From positions 1 to 41,387 of the forward strand of contig CALFBH010000044.1 of NCBI GenBank assembly GCA_937951615.1: a DNA stretch of 41,387 nt, given 5' to 3'. The position numbers and the translations under genes are program-made. Under the pieces are notes generated by a model. The model was given only the letters and a program-made list of their open reading frames with translations, had not been told where the DNA came from and ran no database searches. Below are positions 7,627 through 33,205 of this stretch, in pieces (the first letter of the stretch is position 1; each line of letters begins with the position of its first letter). The stretch comes from an uncultured Saprospiraceae bacterium. GTDB taxonomy: Bacteria > Bacteroidota > Bacteroidia > Chitinophagales > Saprospiraceae.

Positions 7627-10600
7627 TCACTCATCCACAGAAATCGGATCAGTAGACTTCTCCTTAATCAGCCTATTCAATCGCGGAATATCTGCTTCCA
7701 AAATCTCCTGATACCGCTCCACTAAATCATCCACTTCTGCACTCAGTTCTGCCTTGACTTCAAATGCCTGCTGCGGTGGTGCGAAATTGCTGTTTTGATA
7801 CAAAGCAATCAAATGTGCCAGCTTATTCGTCACCCGAATCGGGAAATTTAACGGGTCTTGTCGGCTTTGGTTTTTTGTTTGATACAAAGCCTCTTCTATC
7901 TTGGTCAGCTTTTCTTCCACATCTTCTATATCTTTGATAAATGTGGTGTCGGCTTCCAGTTTTTCCTTATAAGGCTTGAGTTGCTCGCGAATAGAACGGA
8001 TGTTTTTAATCGTCGTATGTCCTTCCGAAACTTTATCCTTAAGTTCCATGATGAAATCAAACTGCGCATTCAAATCACCAGGTTTGCCAGATGCTCTTGG
8101 ATCCATTTTGACCTCAAAAGGCTGACTTTGTTCTTCACCATTCAGCAATAATTTTGCACTATATTTTCCGGGTAAGGCTTTGGGTCCGTTCAGACTGCCC
8201 CACCAGAGAATCATGCCGTCAAATTTTTCTGCGGGCGGATAACTCATGTTCCAGTTGAAAGTATTGGAGCCTTTTTCGGGGTCTATTTTATAGGCTTTCT
8301 CTTCTGCGTGATTGGAATATTCGCTGATTAATTTATTCGCTTCGTCATAAATTTTAAAAGACAGCGTATCTTCTTTTTCCAATTCATTTTTCAAATAATA
8401 ATACATCATCACCCCACCCGGATGGTTCAATCCTTCTCCGACCGGATCTTTGCGTTGCCTGCCTTGCATTCTGTAACTCACATTGGGCTGAAAGAGGTGG
8501 AAATTTTTATTTTTAATGGCATTATCCATTTGATGCAGCGGCGTCAGGTCGTCAATGACCCAGAGGCTTCTGCCTTGAGTCGCTACAATCAGGTTTTGGT
8601 TTTTAATTGCCAAATCAGTAATCGGGACAATCGGCAAATTTAACTGAAAAGGCTGCCAGTTTGTACCATCATTATAAGAAATATACATGCCCGATTCTGT
8701 GCCGGCATACAAAATGCCTTGCTTGTCAGGATCAGCCCGCAAAGCCCGTGTAAAATGCTCCGCAGCAATGCCACGGTCTATTTTGCGCCAGGTTTTTCCA
8801 TAGTCTTCTGTTTTATACAAATAAGGTTTGAAATCGCCCAGCTTGTATCGCGTTCCCACAATATAACAACCAGCTACATTGAATGGATCAGGTTCGAGGC
8901 TGTTGATTTGTGTCCATTCTGGCAATGCAGCGGGTGTGACGTTTGACCAGTTAGCACCGCCATCAGTCGTCAGATGCACCAGCCCGTCATCGCTGCCTGC
9001 CCAGATGACGCCTTCTTTGAGTGGCGATTCGTCGGCAGCAAAAATGGTGCAATAATATTCTACACTCGTATTGTCTTTCGTAATTGGTCCACCCGATGTT
9101 CCTTGTTTGGTTGTGTCATTTCTAGTCAGGTCGGGACTGATGACCTGCCAGGATTGACCCTGATCGGTAGAGACGTGCAGGTGGTTGGAAGCGGTGTATA
9201 ATTTCTTTGCATTATGCCTGGAAAAGAACAAAGGGAAATTCCACTGAAAGCGATATTTCATATCCTCCACGCCATGCCCCATTGGATTGTCCGGCCAGAC
9301 ATTGACGGATTGGGTTTGCTGATTTTCATGGTCATATCTTTCTATAAAACCGTCATAACAGCCGCCATACACCAAATCATTATTCGTCGGGTCGATGGCA
9401 ATATGCCCACATTCGCAACCCGCCGTAGATTCCCAGTCATCCTCGCTAATCGTCGAGCCAGCGGAGCGATGATAAATTCTGACCGTAGAATTGTCCTGCT
9501 GTGCCGCATAAATTCGATAAGGAAAATGATTGTCCGTCGTCACCCGATAAAACTGTGCCGTCGGTTGATTGTGATACGTCGACCAAGTCGCGCCGCCGTC
9601 ATAACTCACCTGCGCCCCACCATCATCGCCGATAATCATGCGCTTAGGATTTTCGGGTGCAATCCAGAGATCATGATGGTCGCCATGCGGAGAGCGTTGT
9701 GGCTTGAAAGTCACGCCGCCATCTTTCGATTTGTGGTAACGCACATTCAACACATACACGACATCTTCATCGTGCGTATCGGCATAAATCCGCGTATAAT
9801 ACCAGGCACGTTGCCGAAGACTGCGGTCGCTATTCAATTTTTTCCAAGTCTCGCCAGCATCATCAGAACGATACAAACCACCATCTTTATTTTCAATAAT
9901 CGCCCAAACGCGTTCTGAGTTAAGTGGACTCACCGCCACGCCAGAAATCCCCCAAACACCTTCCGGCAAACCTTCGTTTTTAGAAATATCTGTCCAGGTC
10001 TCTCCGCTGTCTGTACTTTTCCATATCGCAGATCCCTCACCGCCGCTCGACATGCTATAGGGTGTTCTTTGTACCCGCCAAGTCGTTGCGTAGAGGTGTC
10101 GCGAATTATTTGGATCAATCAATAAATCAACTGCCCCGACTTCATTATTGACAAATAAAACCTTCTTCCAGGTCGTCCCGCCATCGGTTGATTTGAATAC
10201 GCCTCTTTCTTCGCTGGGTATAAATAAATTGCCCATCACGGCAGCATATACAATGTCGGGATTGTTGGGATGAATCCGCAGTCGCGCAACGTGCCGCGAC
10301 TTCAGTAGTCCTTTTTGTGTCCAGGTCTTCCCTGCATCTTCCGACCGCCATACGCCATAACCAAAAGAAACATTTCCACGCACCGTTTTTTCACCACCAC
10401 CCACATAAATCACATTCGGGTCAGATTCTGCCACAGCAATAGAGCCGACAGAACCGCCAAAAAAACCATCACTGATGTTTTTCCAGACACGCCCGCCATC
10501 CTCTGTTTTCCAGACGCCGCCGCCAGCCATGCCGAAGTAAAAAAGATTGGGCTTGCCCGGCACACCAGCCACCGCACAGGAGCGACCGCCGCGATAAGGT

Positions 10601-23754: not shown

Positions 23755-24717
23755 ATGCCGGAACAGAATACTATTCGTCTTGAAAAAATAAATACTGTAG
23801 AGATTAAAAATCTATGGGGGCAGTATAATTTTAAGTGGGACTTAAATGAGGATGTGAATATTCTCGTGGGAATAAATGGGAGTGGAAAGACGACTATTTT
23901 TAGGATAATTGAAAGCATATTTAATGAATTTGACTATTTCGAGGAGGGAGAGTATAATTATGATGAAGAATCTGACTTTATGAAGAAAATGAAAATCAGG
24001 AATCATAATACTGAGGTTAAAATAACATTTAACGATGGAAAAAAAGTATCTGGAAATAAGGGGGTATGGGGAGGCTTAAGATACTTTGGACAGGCTGTTA
24101 AAATATCGAATATAAATACATTTGATGTTCCTGTTTCGAGGTCAAGGGCGGAAAGAATGCAGAAGAATTCTGTTGATTCTGATCTCACATTGAGAATGAG
24201 AACATTACTGGATATTGAATTAGAGGAACTCATATTCAGGAAAGAAAATGAAGACTCTTATACCTTTTTGGATTATCGTTTTCGAAAAATGGTAGGGGTA
24301 CAAACGAAAACTAATGAATTTGAAAAATATCGAAAGAAAATCAATGACTTCTACGCACTAATCAATAATTATTTCAAAGATACTTACAAAGAAATTCGTG
24401 AAGATGAGATGACAAACGGCATCAAGTTTTATCATACAAAACGAGATAAATATATTTCAATCCATAACTTATCAGCTGGTGAAAAACAATTACTGCTCAT
24501 ATTTTTTACGATATTTCTTCAGGATGAACAGCCCTCTGTATTGCTTTTGGATGAGCCTGAAATATCACTACATATCATTTGGCAGCAAAAATTAATAGAA
24601 ACTTTGAGACAACTGAACCCGAACTGTCAATTAATTATTGCCACGCATTCACCAGGAATATTTGGTAAAGGCTGGGGATATAAGCGGTTTAAAGTAGATG
24701 AACTTTTTTATGACTAA
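23755..24717 (+). CDS. AAA/ABC-type ATPase of the RecF/OLD-like class
   Basis: The protein has 320 residues. It has a Walker A motif VGINGSGKTT (near 37), an ABC-like signature NLSAGEKQLL (near 237), a Walker B VLLLDEPEISLH (near 263) and an H-loop IIATHSPGIF. Such stand-alone ATPases often pair with a TOPRIM or DUF4435 nuclease-like partner in phage-defence cassettes. Here only a broken stub of a second gene overlaps its 3' end. Base composition is more AT-rich than the ATP synthase genes, which suggests acquisition. It lies between two copies of the same terminator. It may be non-functional without its partner. Confidence 0.82.
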   Translation: MPEQNTIRLEKINTVEIKNLWGQYNFKWDLNEDVNILVGINGSGKTTIFRIIESIFNEFDYFEEGEYNYDEESDFMKKMKIRNHNTEVKITFNDGKKVSGNKGVWGGLRYFGQAVKISNINTFDVPVSRSRAERMQKNSVDSDLTLRMRTLLDIELEELIFRKENEDSYTFLDYRFRKMVGVQTKTNEFEKYRKKINDFYALINNYFKDTYKEIREDEMTNGIKFYHTKRDKYISIHNLSAGEKQLLLIFFTIFLQDEQPSVLLLDEPEISLHIIWQQKLIETLRQLNPNCQLIIATHSPGIFGKGWGYKRFKVDELFYD

Positions 24718-24889: not shown

Positions 24890-25027
24890 TAAAATCAATC
24901 TATTTGAAAAGCCTTAAAATCCCTAAGACGCTACACTTTGCAACCCTTTAGCGTGATTTTATATCTATACATAATGCAATATGAATGTGTATGTCTCAAT
25001 GAACTATTAAACGACACACTACTACCT

Positions 25028-28000
25028 ATGCTAAACAAAAAATTACAAAAAGAGGTATTCAGCTTATGTCTGTTGACCTGCTCCTTTCTATTCTGCAATG
25101 CACAGTGGAATCCACAGCCCAACTGGAAAGACAGCTATGAAGCCAATGGACTGTGCTGGTGCAACAGTACTTTTGATCACAATCTTGCCAGTAAAACAAT
25201 TGCTATCAATGGAACAGCATACAGTGTCGTTGATATTTGCGATGAACTGGAGCAACACCCGTTATTTCGCAATGAACAAAATAATGATCCAGTTTATAAT
25301 GATATACAATGTGGCAATGGACCGGTCAACGACGCACCAGATGAAGCAGGCTGTCCGGGCCGTGTAGATATGGGCAGCGCAGGCTGCGATATTATTGGGC
25401 CAGGTTTTGATATGAGCTGGTTATCCACTCGCACGCGGTTTGGCGGGGGACAGAATCAGGCAACGATTACCGGAGAGCTTAAAAAATGGCACAAAGTCAC
25501 GCTTTCTTTTGAAGGTCCAAACACTTCTGAAGCCGCAAACCCCAACCCTTTTACAGATTATCGACTGCTGGTCACCTTTACAAATGGCGGTACATCTTAT
25601 ACCGTTCCAGGCTATTATGCTGCTGATGGTGATGCCGCTGAAACAAGTGCGACCGCAGGAAATAAATGGCTCGTTCATTTTGCTCCTGATAAAATAGGTG
25701 TGTGGACTTACACCGCTTCTTTCCGACAAGGAACGGACGTTGCTATTGATACAGGCGTGAATGCAGGTACATCAGCTGGTTTTTTTGATGGTGAAACGGG
25801 TAATTTCAGTATTGCCGCTACAGATAAGACCGGACGTGACCATAGAGGTAAAGGGCGGCTCAGTTATGTAGGCGAACATTATCTTCAATATGGAGAAACA
25901 GGCGAGTATTTTGTGAAAATGGGCGCAGATGCACCGGAAAACACCCTCGCTTATGAGGATTTTGATGATGTACCCAATAGAGGGAATCGTAGGAAAAACT
26001 GGACTCCTCATGCAGGAGATTATCTTGCTGCCGATGCCTCAAATTATACCTGGAAAAGCGGGAAAGGAACAGAATTATTAGGCGCAATCAAGTACTTATC
26101 AGATAAAGGTATGAATGTGTTTTCTTTCCTTACGCTTAGTCTGCATGGAGATGATGAAAACGTTTTTCCATACTTATTAAAAGTGGCAACAAGTACTTAT
26201 AATGGATATAATGATGCTACTCAATGGAATGATGGTGTTCATCATGACCGCTTTGACGTTTCGCGACTGGAGCAATGGGAGAAAGTCTTTGAATATGCAG
26301 ATAAAAAAGGGATGTACATGCACTTCAAAACGATGGAAACCGAAAATGATAACATCATGGACGGCAATGGTTTTGGAAGAGAGCGTAAGATATACTATCG
26401 TGAATTAATCGCCCGATTTGGTCATCATCTTGCCCTCAATTGGAACCTGTCGGAGGAAATTACCCTGAGTGCTTCGGTCATTGACCAAACAGCAGATTTT
26501 ATAAAATCCATTGATCCTTATAATCATATTGTCGTCTTCCATACTTATCCAGGTGAGCAAAATCGCTATGATAATCATTATGGCTCTAACTCAAGTGTAG
26601 ATGGCGCTTCTATTCAAACAGGGGATATCAATAACTCAAATAATAATAGAAATGATTTGCTCGACCAAATCAACAATTCTGCCAATGCAGGTAAAAAATG
26701 GGTGGTAGGATATGATGAACCGGGAACAGCAAATATAGGTATTGATAATGATCCCAATGCAAGGAAAGATGTACGACATAAAGTCGTCTGGAATACCTTG
26801 ATGGCAGGTTCTGCCGGAGCTGAATTTTATTATGGTTATCAGACCAATTGTACCGATTTGACCTGTCAGGATCATCGGTCAAGAGATGAGAAATACACGG
26901 ATGCTAATTATGCCCTGAATTTTTTCCACACCTATCTTCCATTCCATGAAATGTCAGAAATAGACAATATAACAGGAGATACGGATGATTATGTATTTGG
27001 AAAAGCAGGAGAAATATATGCCGTTTATCTGCCGAATGGAGGGTCGAGTTCCATTAACCTACCCGCAGGAGATTGGCAGGTGGAATGGTATAATCCCAGA
27101 AATGGACAAATGCAGTCAGGCACAACACAGATCACCAATCAAATATCAGCCCCTGATGGCAATGACTGGACAGCACTGATTACCAACTGTAATGGCTTTG
27201 AAGAGGCAAATGGGCTGGTGACGATTGAAGCAGAAAGTCTTAATCTGGGCGGAACGGATTGGGAAGTTAAAACCACCGCATCCGGTTACACGGGCAGTGG
27301 ATACATTGAGTGGACGGGAGCAAACTATTTTGCTGCTCCAGGAAATGGACTGATAGAAACCTCTGTCACCATTAACACACCGGGTATATATAAAGTAAAA
27401 TGGCACAACAGAGTTGGATTTGGTGTCAATTCTACAGAACACAACGATACTTGGCTACGATTCCCTGACGCGGATGACTTTTTTGGACAGAAAGGTGCCA
27501 GTATTATCTACCCTTATGGATCTGGGCAAACACCAAATCCGAATGGTGCCGGGGCTGACGGCTGGTTTAAAGTTTTTCTAAGCGGATCGCTCGAATGGGT
27601 ATGGAATTCCAGCACCAGCGACAATGATGGACATGATATTTTTGTTAAATTTGACAATCCAGGAACTTATACATTACAACTATCCGGGCGGTCGCAATAC
27701 CATCAAATTGACCGGATTACATTATTCTTACCCAGTGCAAGCGATCCATTCAATCTTGGAAATCCGCAGACCGTCTGCAATGGTAGTTGTACTGTTGGAG
27801 CTAGTTGTAATGACAATGATTCTTGCACAACAAATGATGTATTTACAATAAACTGTAATTGTGTCGGAACGTTTCAGGACGCTGATAATGATTCGGTTTG
27901 CGATACAAACGACCTTTGCCCTGGTTTTGATGACACCTTGATTGGTACAAGCTGCGACGACGGAAATGACTGTACGGTCAACGATGTATATACTTCGGGT

Positions 28001-29326
28001 TGTGAATGTCGAGGCAATCCACCTACAACAGAAAGTACGATTATTCTTGCGCCGATACAGGACGCCTATTTACAAGGGACTACACTTTTTAATACGAATG
28101 TTTTAAGAGTAGAAAATGGCAATCGGGTGTCCTACATGATGTTTGATTTAAGCAATATTAATGGGACGATCACTTCTGTCGATTTAGAGTTTACCGTCGA
28201 TACAGATGGAGGCGATGGAGACATCAATGTTGAGTTGGGAGACAATAACAACTGGACAGAAACCAACCTTTCTACTGCCAATAAACCCAACACGAATGGT
28301 TTATTGGGACAATTTGTAGGGACTTATGCTGTACAGACGACTTATTCCACCTCATTATCAAATATTAACACAGGAGGATTGCTGACGCTGATTATTACTC
28401 ATCTAAATGGCAATGATGTTTCCTTTAAATCTAAAGAAAATGGAGGCGCGTCGCCGCGTCTTATTGTGAACCTTGAGGAAAATAATAATCCACCAGTAGC
28501 TTGTAATGATGGTAATCCCTGCACCATAAATGAAGTATATGACAATAACTGCGATTGTATCGGTATCCTCCTTGATGATAATAACAATAATATCTGTGAT
28601 CTAGAGGAATGCATAACTACGGAATTATATGTTATGCTTCAAGGAAACTATGATACGGTGACCAATGAAATGACCACCAAACTCAACACAGAACGTGGAC
28701 TATTGCCCGGACAAACGCCTACAAATGTCTTGGCTACTCCTACACCACAGGGGCAGCCTTATAGCGATGCGCCCTGGAATTATGCAGGCGGAGAAGGCGC
28801 AGACTGGACAGATGTCAATTATTCTACTGAGATAGTAGATTGGATACTGATTTCTTTCAGAACCGGGCAGGAAAAAAACACAGAAATCGCGCAGGCTGCT
28901 GCCTTATTGAATAAAAATGGTCTTGTCGAATTTCCCACCTGCGCTCTACTCAATCAAGGCGTGGATTCAGTTTATGTGGTCATAGAACATCGCAATCACA
29001 TGGGCGTCATGTCCCCATCCGCTGTTCCTATTATAGATGGTGTCTTAAACTACGATTTCAGAACAACAGACAGCTATAAAGATCTGACCAGTTATGGACA
29101 AAAACAATTACCCGATGGCAACTGGTGCATGTATGCAGGAGATGGAGACCAGTCAGATTTTCCCAGTTATGATATTAAAGGTTTCGACAAGGCGATATGG
29201 TTTCCTGAAAATGGACTTTTTGAGCAATATTCAGCATCAGATTTTAATCTGGACGGAGATGTAAATGGTGGGGACAAGGCATTCTGGGATGGGAATAATG
29301 GGGTGTCTTCCAGAGTGCCTAAATAG
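25028..29326 (+). CDS. Large secreted modular glycoside hydrolase (DUF5060/DUF4038-like) with binding domains
   Basis: I chose the ATG at 25028 because it opens the signal peptide (MLNKKLQKEVFSLCLLTCSF, then LFCNAQ); an in-frame ATG 90 bases upstream has a poor leader. The order is a short Cys-containing segment; a DUF5060-like beta domain (WHKVTLSFEG, GYYAADGDAAETS, WLVHFAPDKIGVWTYTASF); a TIM-barrel hydrolase core with LALNWNLSEEITLS as probable acid site; a collagen-binding-like beta domain (GDWQVEWYNPRNG); a CBM6-like domain; Cys-rich CDDGNDCTVNDVY repeats with thrombospondin-3-like DxDxDxxCD; a DNRLRE/CBM-like domain; and a final module ending in a dockerin-like DFNLDGDVNGGDKAFWDGN. It probably degrades an extracellular polysaccharide; the substrate is unknown. 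It lies between terminator copies 2 and 3. Confidence 0.85.
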   Translation: MLNKKLQKEVFSLCLLTCSFLFCNAQWNPQPNWKDSYEANGLCWCNSTFDHNLASKTIAINGTAYSVVDICDELEQHPLFRNEQNNDPVYNDIQCGNGPVNDAPDEAGCPGRVDMGSAGCDIIGPGFDMSWLSTRTRFGGGQNQATITGELKKWHKVTLSFEGPNTSEAANPNPFTDYRLLVTFTNGGTSYTVPGYYAADGDAAETSATAGNKWLVHFAPDKIGVWTYTASFRQGTDVAIDTGVNAGTSAGFFDGETGNFSIAATDKTGRDHRGKGRLSYVGEHYLQYGETGEYFVKMGADAPENTLAYEDFDDVPNRGNRRKNWTPHAGDYLAADASNYTWKSGKGTELLGAIKYLSDKGMNVFSFLTLSLHGDDENVFPYLLKVATSTYNGYNDATQWNDGVHHDRFDVSRLEQWEKVFEYADKKGMYMHFKTMETENDNIMDGNGFGRERKIYYRELIARFGHHLALNWNLSEEITLSASVIDQTADFIKSIDPYNHIVVFHTYPGEQNRYDNHYGSNSSVDGASIQTGDINNSNNNRNDLLDQINNSANAGKKWVVGYDEPGTANIGIDNDPNARKDVRHKVVWNTLMAGSAGAEFYYGYQTNCTDLTCQDHRSRDEKYTDANYALNFFHTYLPFHEMSEIDNITGDTDDYVFGKAGEIYAVYLPNGGSSSINLPAGDWQVEWYNPRNGQMQSGTTQITNQISAPDGNDWTALITNCNGFEEANGLVTIEAESLNLGGTDWEVKTTASGYTGSGYIEWTGANYFAAPGNGLIETSVTINTPGIYKVKWHNRVGFGVNSTEHNDTWLRFPDADDFFGQKGASIIYPYGSGQTPNPNGAGADGWFKVFLSGSLEWVWNSSTSDNDGHDIFVKFDNPGTYTLQLSGRSQYHQIDRITLFLPSASDPFNLGNPQTVCNGSCTVGASCNDNDSCTTNDVFTINCNCVGTFQDADNDSVCDTNDLCPGFDDTLIGTSCDDGNDCTVNDVYTSGCECRGNPPTTESTIILAPIQDAYLQGTTLFNTNVLRVENGNRVSYMMFDLSNINGTITSVDLEFTVDTDGGDGDINVELGDNNNWTETNLSTANKPNTNGLLGQFVGTYAVQTTYSTSLSNINTGGLLTLIITHLNGNDVSFKSKENGGASPRLIVNLEENNNPPVACNDGNPCTINEVYDNNCDCIGILLDDNNNNICDLEECITTELYVMLQGNYDTVTNEMTTKLNTERGLLPGQTPTNVLATPTPQGQPYSDAPWNYAGGEGADWTDVNYSTEIVDWILISFRTGQEKNTEIAQAAALLNKNGLVEFPTCALLNQGVDSVYVVIEHRNHMGVMSPSAVPIIDGVLNYDFRTTDSYKDLTSYGQKQLPDGNWCMYAGDGDQSDFPSYDIKGFDKAIWFPENGLFEQYSASDFNLDGDVNGGDKAFWDGNNGVSSRVPK

Positions 29327-29449: not shown

Positions 29450-30460
29450 ATGAGTAAACTCAAAAAAGTTATAGAGATAGAGAATTATTCTGGAGTGAAT
29501 ATTCGTAAAATTCATAGTAGAATAGTTCCTATTAGGCAAGGTTATTACAGAATATTGAACATATCAATTTCAGGAGATGCTCCTAAAGATTTTATTCAAT
29601 TATATAACTACGGAGAAAGTCGCAAAAAGAAGATTAGCAACTGGGCAAAACATATTGCAAAAGTTGGAAAGAAATGGTATCCAATTGAAAGCATTATTGA
29701 ATATCTTTTAAATCGAATTGGAGAAGTTATAGGCTTAGATGTTGCGGAATCCCAATTGCGTTTAGCAGATAACCAAATACGTTTTCTGAGCAAGTATTTT
29801 TTGCAAGACCAGGAAATACTGGTACATGGTGCACAAGTATTTTCTGCGTATTTGGAAGATAAAGATGAGGATTTTGTTGAAGAAATTGAACGTCAGGGTT
29901 TAGCAAGAGAATTGTTTACATTTCAGTTTGTTATCGAATCTATTCGTTACAGCTTTCCCAATCAGTTTGAATCTATTTCATCAGCGTTTGTAAAAATGTT
30001 GGTATTTGATGCAGTTACAGGGAATAACGACAGACATTTTTATAATTGGGGAGTAATAACAGATTTATCAGGAAATAAAAAACCAATTTTTTCGCCAATA
30101 TATGATACCGCACGTGGCTTATTTTGGAATTATAGTGAGGATAAGGTTTTAAAATTATTCAATGCGAAAGGGAGTATTAATGAAATTCATCTTAAGAAGT
30201 ATATCAACAATTCAAGACCCAAAACAGGTTGGGAAGGACATCAGAATGTGAACCACTTTGAATTGATAGAATTGATAAACAATGATTACCCTGAATATAG
30301 TTCTATTTGCATGGAACTATTAAATAGCTTAAATTTGTTTAGTATCATTGAAATGATAGACACAGAATTCAAACATTTTTTCTCATCGGAACATTATTTG
30401 CTTATAATAGAGTGTTTGAAACTTAGAATTAACCACTTAAAATCAATTTGTAACTGTTAA
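29450..30460 (+). CDS. HipA-fold Ser/Thr kinase (stand-alone kinase core)
   Basis: The protein has 336 residues. The HipA-type catalytic loop is FDAVTGNNDRHFYNWGV (near 186-202, with the Asp of NNDRH as catalytic base), followed by the metal-binding SPIYDTARGL near 216. An N-terminal lobe precedes it, with the helix IEYLLNRIGEVIGLDVAESQL. The usual HipA N-terminal subdomain is absent and appears as the next gene. In HipA and HipT, the kinase phosphorylates a tRNA synthetase and arrests growth. No HipB repressor gene is adjacent. Codon use is AT-rich, suggesting transfer. Whether it is a toxin or a kinase with another target is open. Confidence 0.78.
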   Translation: MSKLKKVIEIENYSGVNIRKIHSRIVPIRQGYYRILNISISGDAPKDFIQLYNYGESRKKKISNWAKHIAKVGKKWYPIESIIEYLLNRIGEVIGLDVAESQLRLADNQIRFLSKYFLQDQEILVHGAQVFSAYLEDKDEDFVEEIERQGLARELFTFQFVIESIRYSFPNQFESISSAFVKMLVFDAVTGNNDRHFYNWGVITDLSGNKKPIFSPIYDTARGLFWNYSEDKVLKLFNAKGSINEIHLKKYINNSRPKTGWEGHQNVNHFELIELINNDYPEYSSICMELLNSLNLFSIIEMIDTEFKHFFSSEHYLLIIECLKLRINHLKSICNC

Positions 30461-30470
30461 AAGGAGTAAT

Positions 30471-30866
30471 ATGTTAAAAAAGCTAAAAAATATCTTCTGG
30501 AAATCAGAAGGACATGAAGGCTTAATGACTCCAAAAAATGTCAATGTCATTTTTGAATTGAAATATGGTAATCTGCTGATTGGCACATTAAATTTAAAAA
30601 ATGGACTTTGGACGTTTATTTATTCTGATGCATTTAAGCAGCAGAATGGAATTAAGCCATTAACTGATTTTCCAAAAACCAACAAAACATATCAAAATGA
30701 GGCGCTTTACCCTTTCTTTGTACAGCGTATCCCTGGCTTGAACCAACCGAAAATTAAGGCAACCATAGAAAAAGAAAAGATAGACAAGACAAGTGAAGTA
30801 GAACTCTTAAAGCGATTTGGGCAGTTGTCTATTTCCAATCCTTTCCAGTTATTTGCTGTTGGTTAA
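30471..30866 (+). CDS. HipA N-terminal-subdomain protein (HipS/Couple_hipA-like)
   Basis: The protein has 131 residues and matches the N-terminal subdomain 1 of HipA: a strand pair IGTLNLKNGLWTFIYSDAF, then KPLTDFPKTNKTYQNEALYPFF, then VQRIPGLNQP (the xLPPEGxxP-like stretch of HipA). In E. coli O127 HipBST the equivalent small protein, HipS, acts as antitoxin to kinase HipT. Here it follows the kinase by 10 bases instead of preceding it. The C-terminal 45 residues (VELLKRFGQLSISNPFQLFAVG) are not assigned. It ends 10 bases before the first lipopeptide gene. Confidence 0.72.
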   Translation: MLKKLKNIFWKSEGHEGLMTPKNVNVIFELKYGNLLIGTLNLKNGLWTFIYSDAFKQQNGIKPLTDFPKTNKTYQNEALYPFFVQRIPGLNQPKIKATIEKEKIDKTSEVELLKRFGQLSISNPFQLFAVG

Positions 30867-30876
30867 GTATTGAATA

Positions 30877-31059
30877 ATGAAAATATCAAAATCACTATCA
30901 CTAGCGATTGCAGCAGGCATCGTAATGGGAACCACATCTTCTTGTGGGACTAAAAATAATCCAGCCCATACAGAAGATTGTCCAGTGAATTGTGAAGTTG
31001 ACCATGCGAAAGAAAAAAAGAAGCGAGGTGCTTATTGCCCCGCTTGCGGTATGGGCTAA
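30877..31059 (+). CDS. Cys-rich lipopeptide 1, candidate MNIO-modified RiPP precursor
   Basis: The peptide has 60 residues. It has a lipoprotein signal (MKISKSLSLAIAAGIVMGTT, then lipobox TSSC) and a mature part of about 38 residues with motif EDCPVNCEVDH, a Lys-rich spacer, and the C-terminal motif YCPACGMG. It is closely paralogous to the next gene, both in the signal and in the two Cys motifs. The DUF692/MNIO enzyme gene lies downstream. Bufferin precursors also carry a secretion signal and few conserved cysteines. The CPxxC...CPACGM layout also resembles a shrunken heavy-metal-binding domain, so an unmodified metal-binding lipoprotein is the alternative. Confidence 0.75.
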   Translation: MKISKSLSLAIAAGIVMGTTSSCGTKNNPAHTEDCPVNCEVDHAKEKKKRGAYCPACGMG

Positions 31060-31155
31060 GTATCTCAGAAAAATATTAGAAAAACCCAACCCTTCTTAAA
31101 GTTCCTCCCGTCTATCCTAATGACAGCTCAAAACATCAATCAAAACAATAAAATT

Positions 31156-31347
31156 ATGAAAGTTTCAAAATCATTATTATCAGCTATTGCAGTAGGTATC
31201 GTTATGAGCACCACTTCATGTAGTTTGCAAGACGAAGTTGCTGAATTACATGATGAAGATTGTCCTGTAGGTTGTGACGTAGATCACGAGCAAGAAGCTG
31301 AAGAAGAAGAGCGTTGTTGGGATTGTCCGGCTTGTGGTATGGGCTAA
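31156..31347 (+). CDS. Cys-rich lipopeptide 2, candidate MNIO-modified RiPP precursor
   Basis: The start at 31156 (MKVSKSLLSAIAVGIVMSTT) is chosen to match its paralogue at 30877; an upstream in-frame ATG at 31120 would add 12 polar residues before the signal. It has 63 residues, lipobox TTSC, a mature part with EDCPVGCDVDH, an acidic spacer (EQEAEEEERCWD, with one extra Cys) and CPACGMG at the end. The spacer is acidic here and basic in paralogue 1, while both Cys motifs are kept, so the Cys motifs are under selection. SLQDE after the lipid Cys resembles a Bacteroidota surface-export signal. The MNIO gene starts nine bases after its stop. Confidence 0.78.
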   Translation: MKVSKSLLSAIAVGIVMSTTSCSLQDEVAELHDEDCPVGCDVDHEQEAEEEERCWDCPACGMG

Positions 31348-31356
31348 GCAATACCG

Positions 31357-32484
31357 ATGGACAATCTATACTGCGGAATTTCCTGTAATCTTGATAGCAA
31401 TATATTGGCGACAGCCCTTCCGCTATTGGAAAAAGGCGCCGTTGAAGCCATAGAATGGTCTTTCGACGCGCTTTTTCGCCATGCCGATATTCCTGCTTGG
31501 TTTGATGAACTGTTACAGCTTTTTGCCAGCGAAGGCAGATTGATTGGACATGGAGTCTATTATTCCCTGTTTTCGGGAACATGGAAACGGGAGCAACAAG
31601 AATGGCTGGACAACCTCAAATCAACTGCCGACCGTTATCACTTCGACCATATTACCGAGCATTTTGGCTACATGACGGGCGAAGATTTCCATAAAGGTGC
31701 GCCTTTGAGTGTGCCTTATAATCAGACGACGCTACAGATTGCAAGAGATAGGATTTCGAGAATGTACGCAGCCTGCGGACGACCAATTGGATTAGAAAAT
31801 CTGGCTTTTTCTTATGCTTACGAAGATTTGGAAAAACACGGCGCTTTTCTAAAAGAAATATTATCAGAAGTCAATGGTTTTATCATTCTCGACTTGCATA
31901 ATGTCTATTGTCAGGTCAAAAATTTCAATATTGATTTCGAAAAACTAATCTCTGCTTATCCGCTTGAGATGGTTCGGGAAATTCATATTTCAGGCGGTTC
32001 GTGGGAAGATTCTACCGTGGAAGTCGGCAAAAAAATAAGAAGAGACACCCACGATGATGCCGTTCCGGAAGAAGTATTTGAATATTTGAAAACAGTCATT
32101 CCCAAAGTCCCCAATTTAAAATTTGTGATGCTGGAGCAAATGGGGAGTGCATTGAAAACAATGGATAGTCAGGCACAATTTCGCAGCGATTTTATAAAAA
32201 TGAATCAAATCTGCAAGCAAGCCCAAGCCACTAAACCTAAGTCCAATAATGTTTTTCTACCCAAAGAAAAACTGCCCACTCGCCCAGCCTTCGAATCTGC
32301 TCAATTAGCCAAAGAACAAGCCACATTGACCAATATTCTGGAAAATTCAGCTGATTTTCAGGAAGCCAAAAGTCGCCTTTCTACCTCCATCCTCAGCCAT
32401 TCAGACTGGAAAATAGAACAATGGGATGATGTGATGCTGGAGACTGCATTTGCGATAAGCCAAAAATGGAAAGATGGGTTTTAA
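31357..32484 (+). CDS. DUF692-family multinuclear non-heme iron oxidase (MNIO), RiPP-modifying
   Basis: The protein has 375 residues. Residues about 1-285 show the DUF692 TIM-barrel ligands in order: GHGVYYS (near 64), TEHFGYM (near 99), LSVPYN, IGLENLAFSY (near 146), ILDLHNVYC (near 179), EIHISGG (near 208), RRDTHDDAVP (near 230) and VMLEQMG (near 260). These match MbnB, TglH, ChrH and bufferin synthases, which use two or three irons and oxygen to rearrange Cys residues. The last 85 residues or so (LPTRPAFESAQLAKEQATLT onward) are an added helical segment I cannot assign. The usual partner/RRE protein gene is not adjacent. The likely substrates are the two lipopeptides directly upstream. Confidence 0.9.
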   Translation: MDNLYCGISCNLDSNILATALPLLEKGAVEAIEWSFDALFRHADIPAWFDELLQLFASEGRLIGHGVYYSLFSGTWKREQQEWLDNLKSTADRYHFDHITEHFGYMTGEDFHKGAPLSVPYNQTTLQIARDRISRMYAACGRPIGLENLAFSYAYEDLEKHGAFLKEILSEVNGFIILDLHNVYCQVKNFNIDFEKLISAYPLEMVREIHISGGSWEDSTVEVGKKIRRDTHDDAVPEEVFEYLKTVIPKVPNLKFVMLEQMGSALKTMDSQAQFRSDFIKMNQICKQAQATKPKSNNVFLPKEKLPTRPAFESAQLAKEQATLTNILENSADFQEAKSRLSTSILSHSDWKIEQWDDVMLETAFAISQKWKDGF

Positions 32485-32487
32485 GCC

Positions 32488-32694
32488 TATGGCAATCGCA
32501 TTAAAATATTTTTTAAACCACTAAGCGCACTAAAGGACATGAAGCCGATAGCTATCGGCTTGTATGGTATAAAGAACACGAATGAATTTTCCTTTGTGGT
32601 CTTTTTATCCTGTTAGTTTTAGTGTTCCTTAGTGCGCTTAGTGGTTAGAAAAGGGATACGTATAAGACTAATTTACTTTTATGCGATTGCCATA
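32488..32694. repeat. Nested hairpin between convergent genes
   Basis: Outer arms TATGGCAATCGCAT (32488-32501) and ATGCGATTGCCATA (32681-32694) are perfect. Inner arms 32516-32537 and 32626-32646 (AACCACTAAGCGCACTAA with one gap) pair almost perfectly. The palindrome AGCCGATAGCTATCGGCT lies in the loop region. It could terminate both the MNIO gene and the minus-strand gene ending at 32708, or be a small palindromic insertion. Confidence 0.78.
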
Positions 32695-32707
32695 TTTTTA
32701 AACCCAA

Positions 32708-33046
32708 TCAAGCCTTTCGCTTAAAACGAGCTTCCACAATCAAATCATTTTCAACCTTATAAATCGCAATAATTTCAACATCAACCCCTTTTCTACCTGT
32801 GACGATTTCATGGTCAATGACGGTATTGCCCATCACCATTCTATTCAGGATTTTAGCATTCAAATTTGGAGAATTGTCAAATACATCGCCATAAATCTGC
32901 CTTAAATCTGAATGCCCGGTAGCGAAAGGACTAGCTTCCGCAAAATTATACAGCCTGACATTAGCATCATGACATTCCACAAATTGGTCAATATCTCTCG
33001 CATTATAAGCCTCTACCTGTTTTTGGACGATTGTTGCTGGATTCAT
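32708..33046 (-). CDS. NTF2/SnoaL-like protein
   Basis: The protein has 112 residues and the SnoaL-like cone fold: VQKQVEAYNARDIDQFVECHDANVRLYNF at the start, an internal helix (GHSDLRQIYGDVFDNSPNLNAK), and strands VIDHEIVTGRKGVDVEIIAIYKVENDLIVEARF. These small proteins include steroid isomerases, polyketide cyclases and many of unknown role. No substrate can be inferred. It is on the minus strand, downstream of the DinB-like gene with a hairpin between them. Confidence 0.85.
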   Translation of the reverse strand: MNPATIVQKQVEAYNARDIDQFVECHDANVRLYNFAEASPFATGHSDLRQIYGDVFDNSPNLNAKILNRMVMGNTVIDHEIVTGRKGVDVEIIAIYKVENDLIVEARFKRKA

Positions 33047-33110
33047 AGTTTGATTTTAAGGCTACAAGTATAAGTAATCTTTTCGACTGAAATTCTGTGG
33101 AATGAATTTA

Positions 33111-33192
33111 GCCACGAATGCACGAATCTTTTTTTGCATTTTTCATCACGAATACACGAGTCACATTCGTCTTTAATTCGTGCATTCGTGGC
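33111..33192. repeat. Inverted repeat with 17-base arms
   Basis: GCCACGAATGCACGAAT (33111-33127) is exactly complementary to 33176-33192, around a loop with a partial internal copy (CACGAATACACGAGT). A GCCACGAATGCGTACACGA fragment occurs also at 7547. It lies between two minus-strand genes and looks like a dispersed palindromic repeat that may act as a terminator. Confidence 0.72.
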
Positions 33193-33205
33193 AAAAAAAT
33201 AAGCA

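Follow-up and report, generated by a model that had tools for sequence, protein, structure and literature searches.

A chryseobasin-related lipopeptide locus with two precursors that carry a probable metal-ligand tetrad

What do two short lipoproteins with cysteine motifs do beside an MNIO (DUF692) enzyme, and does such a locus represent a RiPP system of its own? The window, by which we mean the whole stretch of 41,387 nucleotides analysed, encodes two tandem peptides with lipoprotein signals and the C-terminus CPACGMG, followed by the enzyme gene, whose ATG lies nine bases past the peptide 2 stop. This arrangement, described in an earlier sequence-only reading, was confirmed by the open reading frames and by the Pfam model PF05114 (MbnB_TglH_ChrH; 3.1e-33 for the enzyme). 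The features of the locus are as follows.

30877-31059, + strand: precursor peptide 1, 60 aa, with a lipoprotein signal, an HCCH tetrad spacer, a basic KEKKKRG stretch and C-terminal CPACGMG
30943-30945, + strand: lipobox Cys codon of peptide 1 (C23 of TSSC), the lipidation site predicted from sequence and alignment
30967-31005, + strand: H-x3-C-x3-C-x3-H tetrad of peptide 1, HTEDCPVNCEVDH (H31/C35/C39/H43)
31036-31056, + strand: CPACGMG of peptide 1, predicted MNIO modification site
31156-31347, + strand: precursor peptide 2, 63 aa, with a lipoprotein signal, an HCCH tetrad, an acidic spacer and C-terminal CPACGMG
31249-31287, + strand: H-x3-C-x3-C-x3-H tetrad of peptide 2, HDEDCPVGCDVDH
31324-31344, + strand: CPACGMG of peptide 2, predicted MNIO modification site
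31357-32484, + strand: MNIO (DUF692) enzyme, ChrH/DybH subfamily, 375 aa, barrel plus C-terminal helices
32510-32652, no strand: inverted repeat just 3' of the enzyme gene, 30-nt arms, 87%

The start of peptide 2 is the one that matches its paralogue, the longest frame opening at 31120. A lipobox-type Cys, read by eye, is present in both peptides (TSSC in peptide 1, TTSC in peptide 2), and a 20-base core pattern for CPACGMG-stop matches twice in the window and never in 100 shuffles. Both peptides also share the motif EDCPVxCxVDH noted earlier, and the acidic spacer of peptide 2 holds one additional Cys (ERCWD). The contrast between a basic and an acidic spacer is real in the window, with net charges of +1 and -14, but it is not a rule: among the 8 other two-precursor loci, opposite signs recur only at L070, and opposite charges as a two-peptide device were rejected as a general feature. 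Just 3' of the enzyme gene, nested and further inverted repeats lie at 32473-32709 and 33107-33196 (arms of 36, 30 and 21 nt), the first arm covering the enzyme stop codon. Promoter and terminator scans stayed near chance (13 vs 12.9 expected and 4 vs 2.6 expected, respectively), and an Rfam scan returned tRNA only.

We then assigned the enzyme and the precursors to families. Specifically, peptides 1 and 2 score 48.4 and 49.7 bits against NF050125, the model for a "chryseobasin-related MNIO class RiPP peptide" (cut-off 40), and only 10.9 and 12.4 bits against the ChrA-type precursor model NF050124 (cut-off 50). The best NCBIfam model for the enzyme is NF050165 (MNIO_ChrH) at 380.5 bits, under its strict cut-off of 600, a value exceeded in 0 of 199 sampled genomes of the family. 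An AlphaFold2 model of the enzyme (4 sequences; mean pLDDT 83.9, pTM 0.86) displays a barrel-type order of strands and helices followed by helices 315-330, 334-342 and 358-372, and Foldseek ranks MbnB 7fc0 (7.5e-13) and TglH 8hi7 (1.4e-12) first and second for this model. Additionally, the enzyme motifs EN, DLHN, HxxGGSW, HD..VP and LE, which we take to be the metal ligands, align with those of TglH 8hci. The helices after the barrel stand where PMC12636315 places the helical bundle of the ChrH subfamily; a corresponding model of the peptide was uninformative (pLDDT 49). Taken together, sequence, model and analogy indicate that the cluster very probably encodes a lipidated RiPP of the DybA/DybH (chryseobasin-related) type with two precursors. 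The proposal of a candidate new RiPP system therefore fails, because both peptides pass NF050125, an existing precursor model, and the subfamily is described in the preprint PMC12636315 (2025). Likewise, the statement that lipoproteins with such a C-terminal motif are unknown among the described MNIO products has to be withdrawn, as PMC12636315 describes one and CPACGMG occurs in ChrA (PMC10214503).

Pfam scans of ten neighbouring genes gave HipA, AAA, SnoaL, PIN, sugar-transferase, oxidoreductase and further unrelated families, with some of the genes in no family, and no partner protein, including the DUF2063 type, was found among them. Across 56 loci, many on short contigs, 608 ORFs within 8 kb yielded no shared neighbour gene pointing to metal; the largest shared family, presumably SusC-like, occurs in 9 of the 56 at scattered distances. 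Directly upstream, HipA is encoded by two genes with the C-terminal part first (29450-30457) and the N-terminal part second (30471-30863), ending 10 bases before peptide 1; these match PDC-M03A (1.9e-34) and PDC-M03B (8.6e-14) of a PADLOC candidate system. The HipA genes were rejected as part of the RiPP system, since none of the other loci fetched contains a match to them. Further upstream, 23755-24717 encodes an AriA-like AAA ATPase (PADLOC PDLC04164, 5e-69), presumably of PARIS defence; no AriB-like gene lies directly 3' of it, the next gene (24938-29326) having DUF5060 and CBM96 domains.

The pairing of precursor and enzyme was examined in 199 sampled genomes of the window's family (f1), which we read as Saprospiraceae because a named Saprospiraceae MAG (L058) groups with the f1 genome G444. 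A precursor match was found in 35 of them, 30 above the NF050125 cut-off, and an enzyme match in 36, nearly complete in length in 34 and fragments only in two. The two fragments are of ChrH type (G031, C13:41813-41998, 79.8 bits; G151, C588:36743-37255, 131.7 bits) and may reflect decay of the gene, a different MNIO or a gap in the assembly. In all 34 genomes with a near full-length enzyme, a precursor ending CxxCGxG adjoins the enzyme gene (adjacency in G000 being taken from the window), so that the co-occurrence of CPACGMG peptides with DUF692 genes, on which the sequence-only reading had staked its claim, is borne out. The exact pattern CPxCG[ML]G-stop occurs in 29 of these 34 genomes and in none of the remaining 165 (Fisher p 5e-30, with relatedness not taken into account). 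Its 33 places in the 29 genomes are all no more than 648 bases away from an enzyme match, and none was found elsewhere in the 199 genomes; the five remaining enzyme genomes have variants beside the enzyme, namely CPACGLG (G072, G122, G159), CPGCGLG (G091) and CGPCGMG (G137). The precursors stand on the enzyme strand in 67 of 67 cases, spread over 59 loci. Among 395 sampled genomes of the class, 6 contain CPxCG[ML]G-stop; a search of genome contigs with one enzyme sequence returned only 3 loci.

Some multi-precursor loci depart from the common ending. In 5 of the 11 such loci, a set that includes the window, one precursor copy ends CxxCGRG (L078 9368-9568, L088 8405-8611, L106 10529-10798, L117 2029-2244 and L118 2023-2238), and two of these five loci also hold a CGKCGKG copy. 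L117 and L118 (genomes G1137 and G1189) have four tandem precursors per enzyme with signals that, by eye, have no lipobox Cys.

Two genomes of the window's own genus are instructive. G114 (97% complete) has neither an enzyme nor a precursor match, and only in G003 (98% complete; locus L087) does a precursor match come without an enzyme match. G003 encodes two tandem lipoproteins (9586-9786 and 9934-10155, - strand) with a similar signal and Gly-rich ends, which match NF050125 weakly and under the cut-off (5.4e-6 and 1.1e-4) and have neither CPACGMG nor the tetrad. They may have lost the RiPP function or represent a relative that goes unmodified, and this genome, with similar lipoproteins that have neither motif and with no enzyme, offers a natural comparison. 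AriA and AriB genes stand together directly upstream of these lipoproteins (L087 11247-12275 and 10313-11254, - strand).

Precursors were compared in 69 rows, 67 from the loci after removal of two duplicates and 2 from the window; L059, taken to be the L094 contig (same length, same sequences), and L040, the same place as L104, were dropped before counting, and L087, with no enzyme, contributed no row. In the conservation alignment of 52 rows, from which the L070 and L099 rows were left out, every row (52 of 52) has Cys at the lipobox position. The automatic lipobox call, the first Cys at positions 15-43, is misplaced for one L070 row, L080, one L106 row and L107. Within the signal, K2 (88%), S4 (79%), K5 (85%), L7 and L8 (94% each) and G14 (92%) are conserved over the 52 rows. 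This signal, MKxSKSLLxAIxxG (window 30877-30945 and 31156-31221), is strongly conserved, though the enzyme published in PMC12636315 reads only the C-terminus.

What, then, lies between the signal and the C-terminus? The middle motif is better written H-x3-C-x3-C-x3-H; relatives do not keep the Pro of CPVxC. This exact tetrad is present in 17 of the 55 rows from f1 and f12, two families of the order (14/50 in f1, 1/1 in the named Saprospiraceae MAG, 2/4 in f12), absent in the other 38, and found in 0 of the 14 rows from elsewhere; by eye, the precursors of G1209 and of the two f110 genomes do not have it, and L104 is an example of a locus with a tetrad-free peptide. Since the definition of the tetrad came from viewing the sequences, the following shuffle figures are not clean tests: residue shuffles of the same spacers give a mean of 0.004 tetrads and reach 17 in 0 of 10,000, and C-x3-C-x3-H, present in 19 of 55 rows, has a shuffled mean of 0.139 and is likewise reached in 0 of 10,000. 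A cleaner test is given by the 20 f1/f12 rows first seen after C-x3-C-x3-H had been noted, which are relatives of the other rows: this motif is present in 7 (shuffled mean 0.046; 7 reached in 0 of 20,000), and all 7 also have the outer His at -4. A slack form that allows Cys outside and one residue of slack, fitted after the fact, covers 23 of 55 rows (shuffled mean 0.036; 23 reached in 0 of 5,000), made up of 17 HCCH, 1 CCCH (L065), 3 HCCC (L071, L074, L084) and 2 CCCC (L097, L098). The remaining 32 rows have no tetrad even with slack, although most of them still contain at least one other Cys.

At the outer positions of the tetrad, His is thus exchanged for Cys. Such exchange at fixed spacing is the behaviour of metal ligands, an argument that falls short of proof, and we regard the spacer tetrad as a probable metal-ligand site in a subset of the precursors, including both window peptides. 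The copper-storage proteins of the Csp type have CXXXC motifs, and the CuA loop of cytochrome oxidase subunit II has the spacing C-x3-C-x3-H. The tetrad has this same spacing, which serves as a lead to its role and claims no homology. That the site binds a metal ion of soft or borderline character, such as Cu(I) or Zn(II), at the surface of the membrane and apart from the macrocycle is given a little less than an even chance. A metal buffer had been suggested earlier on analogy alone, and the HCCH tetrad lends that idea independent, if inferential, support.

The strongest alternative takes the internal residues not for a metal site but for a C-x3-C disulfide, for a redox switch, or for a further substrate site of the enzyme. 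In line with this, C-x3-C alone is commoner (30/55) than the full tetrad (17/55). However, 20 of the 30 C-x3-C precursors have His at -4 and 18 have it at +8, any other offset reaching at most 3; moreover, 6 further rows have Cys at an outer His position when one residue of slack is allowed, and DybH needs only the C-terminal motif of its substrate (PMC12636315). We consider this alternative unlikely, though it deserves to be kept in mind. The tetrad is unnecessary for modification, since it is missing from the precursors of f20, which is probably Chitinophagaceae as L060 groups with it, and Chitinophaga ChsA is modified (PMC12636315).

The tetrad could also have come down neutrally from a common ancestor, in acidic spacers that change fast. 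On a tree of 60 enzymes, the motif (HCCH or CCH) falls on 17 tips and requires at least 10 changes (4 being forced by well-supported branches) vs a shuffled mean of 14.9, a clustering that speaks for this explanation, and near relatives are found among the rows. Against it, the tetrad is found on both sides of a deep, only moderately supported fork (88/67, 88/86), in the clade of the window and in the large other group, while the adjoining residues change; it is either old and repeatedly lost, or repeatedly gained. Also against neutrality, the spacer shuffles described above never reach the observed count, and of the 4,953 ORFs between 40 and 200 aa that the fetched loci contain, the 15 with HCCH are all precursors. 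Neutral descent is improbable.

Preferring the metal-ligand site, we tentatively propose, at somewhat less than even confidence, that part of the chryseobasin-related lipopeptides are two-headed, with an enzyme-made C-terminal macrocycle and, in the spacer, a metal site whose four ligands follow [HC]-x3-C-x3,4-C-x3,4-[HC], in Saprospiraceae-type bacteria and one related family. Such peptides may capture or deliver metal at the envelope, where the macrocycle would dock or cap. The Discussion of PMC12636315 states the function of DybA-type lipopeptides as unknown; as some members of the family carry the tetrad and others do not, that function becomes a direct question of metal binding. As far as the literature searched goes, the internal tetrad is new and the chryseobasin-related lipoprotein RiPP is a known kind: that literature yielded no earlier description of the tetrad and no Saprospiraceae MNIO system, and neither CxxxC nor Saprospir appears in the available text of PMC12636315, whose Fig. 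1c logo or supplement may show the tetrad.

How the peptides would mature can be pictured from the tested relatives. The iron enzyme would take the C-terminal CPACGMG into its barrel in the cytoplasm and remove four hydrogens (-4 Da), linking the sulfur of the first Cys to the beta carbon of the second, and Cys-Gly-Met would rearrange to a hydantoin with a free thiohemiaminal thiol. The peptide would then be exported, Lgt would add diacylglycerol to the lipobox Cys, LspA would cut, and N-acylation would leave a membrane-anchored tail ending in the macrocycle, the two mature peptides having 38 and 42 residues. Specifically, DybH converts CPACGMG into a macrocycle plus hydantoin (-4 Da) with no partner protein, seven C-terminal residues suffice for its recognition and only CPACGMG is modified, and DybA made in E. 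coli becomes a triacylated lipoprotein; ChsH and HymH gave the -4 Da product as well (PMC12636315). These relatives support the view of an MNIO-modified, exported and lipid-anchored Cys peptide. Of the two sets of cysteines earlier put forward for modification, those of CPACGMG are favoured by analogy with DybH and those of CPVxC are not, given that the last seven residues suffice and the Pro is unconserved.

It is quite improbable that the enzyme instead makes an S-methylated, +10 Da product of the ChrA type. The identical motif would allow it, and ArlH gave a mixture of the -4 Da and the S-methylated +10 Da products (PMC12636315). However, the window enzyme lies below the ChrH equivalog cut-off, none of the ten neighbours resembles ChrI (DUF1772), ChrE (epimerase) or ChrP (M42 peptidase), and the enzymes tested from Chitinophaga and Hymenobacter yielded the -4 Da product (PMC12636315). 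Least probable is a bufferin-like copper buffer in which modified, thiooxazole-type cysteines themselves bind copper: bufferins and oxazolins are indeed MNIO products, some with lipoprotein signals (PMC12452194, PMC12636315), but the enzyme reaches only 98.4 bits against BufB (cut-off 310) and 78.1 bits against HvfB (cut-off 360) vs 380.5 for ChrH, no partner-protein family is among the ten neighbours scanned, and modified DybA is described without the UV absorbance feature of thiooxazole-type rings (PMC12636315).

Among known systems, the nearest are the DAG-RiPPs DybA/DybH of Dyadobacter crusticola, ChsA/ChsH and HymA/HymH (PMC12636315), which share with the window the C-terminal CPxCGxG and the lipobox Cys. 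The window further shares with DybA/DybH an adjoining MNIO with C-terminal helices and a minimal cluster in which no partner protein was found, and differs in its two precursors and its internal H-x3-C-x3-C-x3-H tetrad. Apart from the CPACGMG cysteines DybA is described with a single Cys, and three alkylations were seen on its A46P form (PMC12636315), so that DybA would have no C-x3-C pair. Chryseobasins are counted among the MNIO products (PMC12452194), and ChrA/ChrH of Chryseobacterium (PMC10214503) shares the CPACGMG substrate motif and the enzyme subfamily, whereas ChrA is longer and has a type I signal, its cluster contains ChrI, ChrE and ChrP, and its product is S-methylated (+10 Da). 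Bufferins and oxazolins (PMC12452194, PMC12636315) have in common with the window an MNIO enzyme and exported Cys peptides, some of them lipidated, and differ in enzyme models, partner proteins, core motifs and chemistry.
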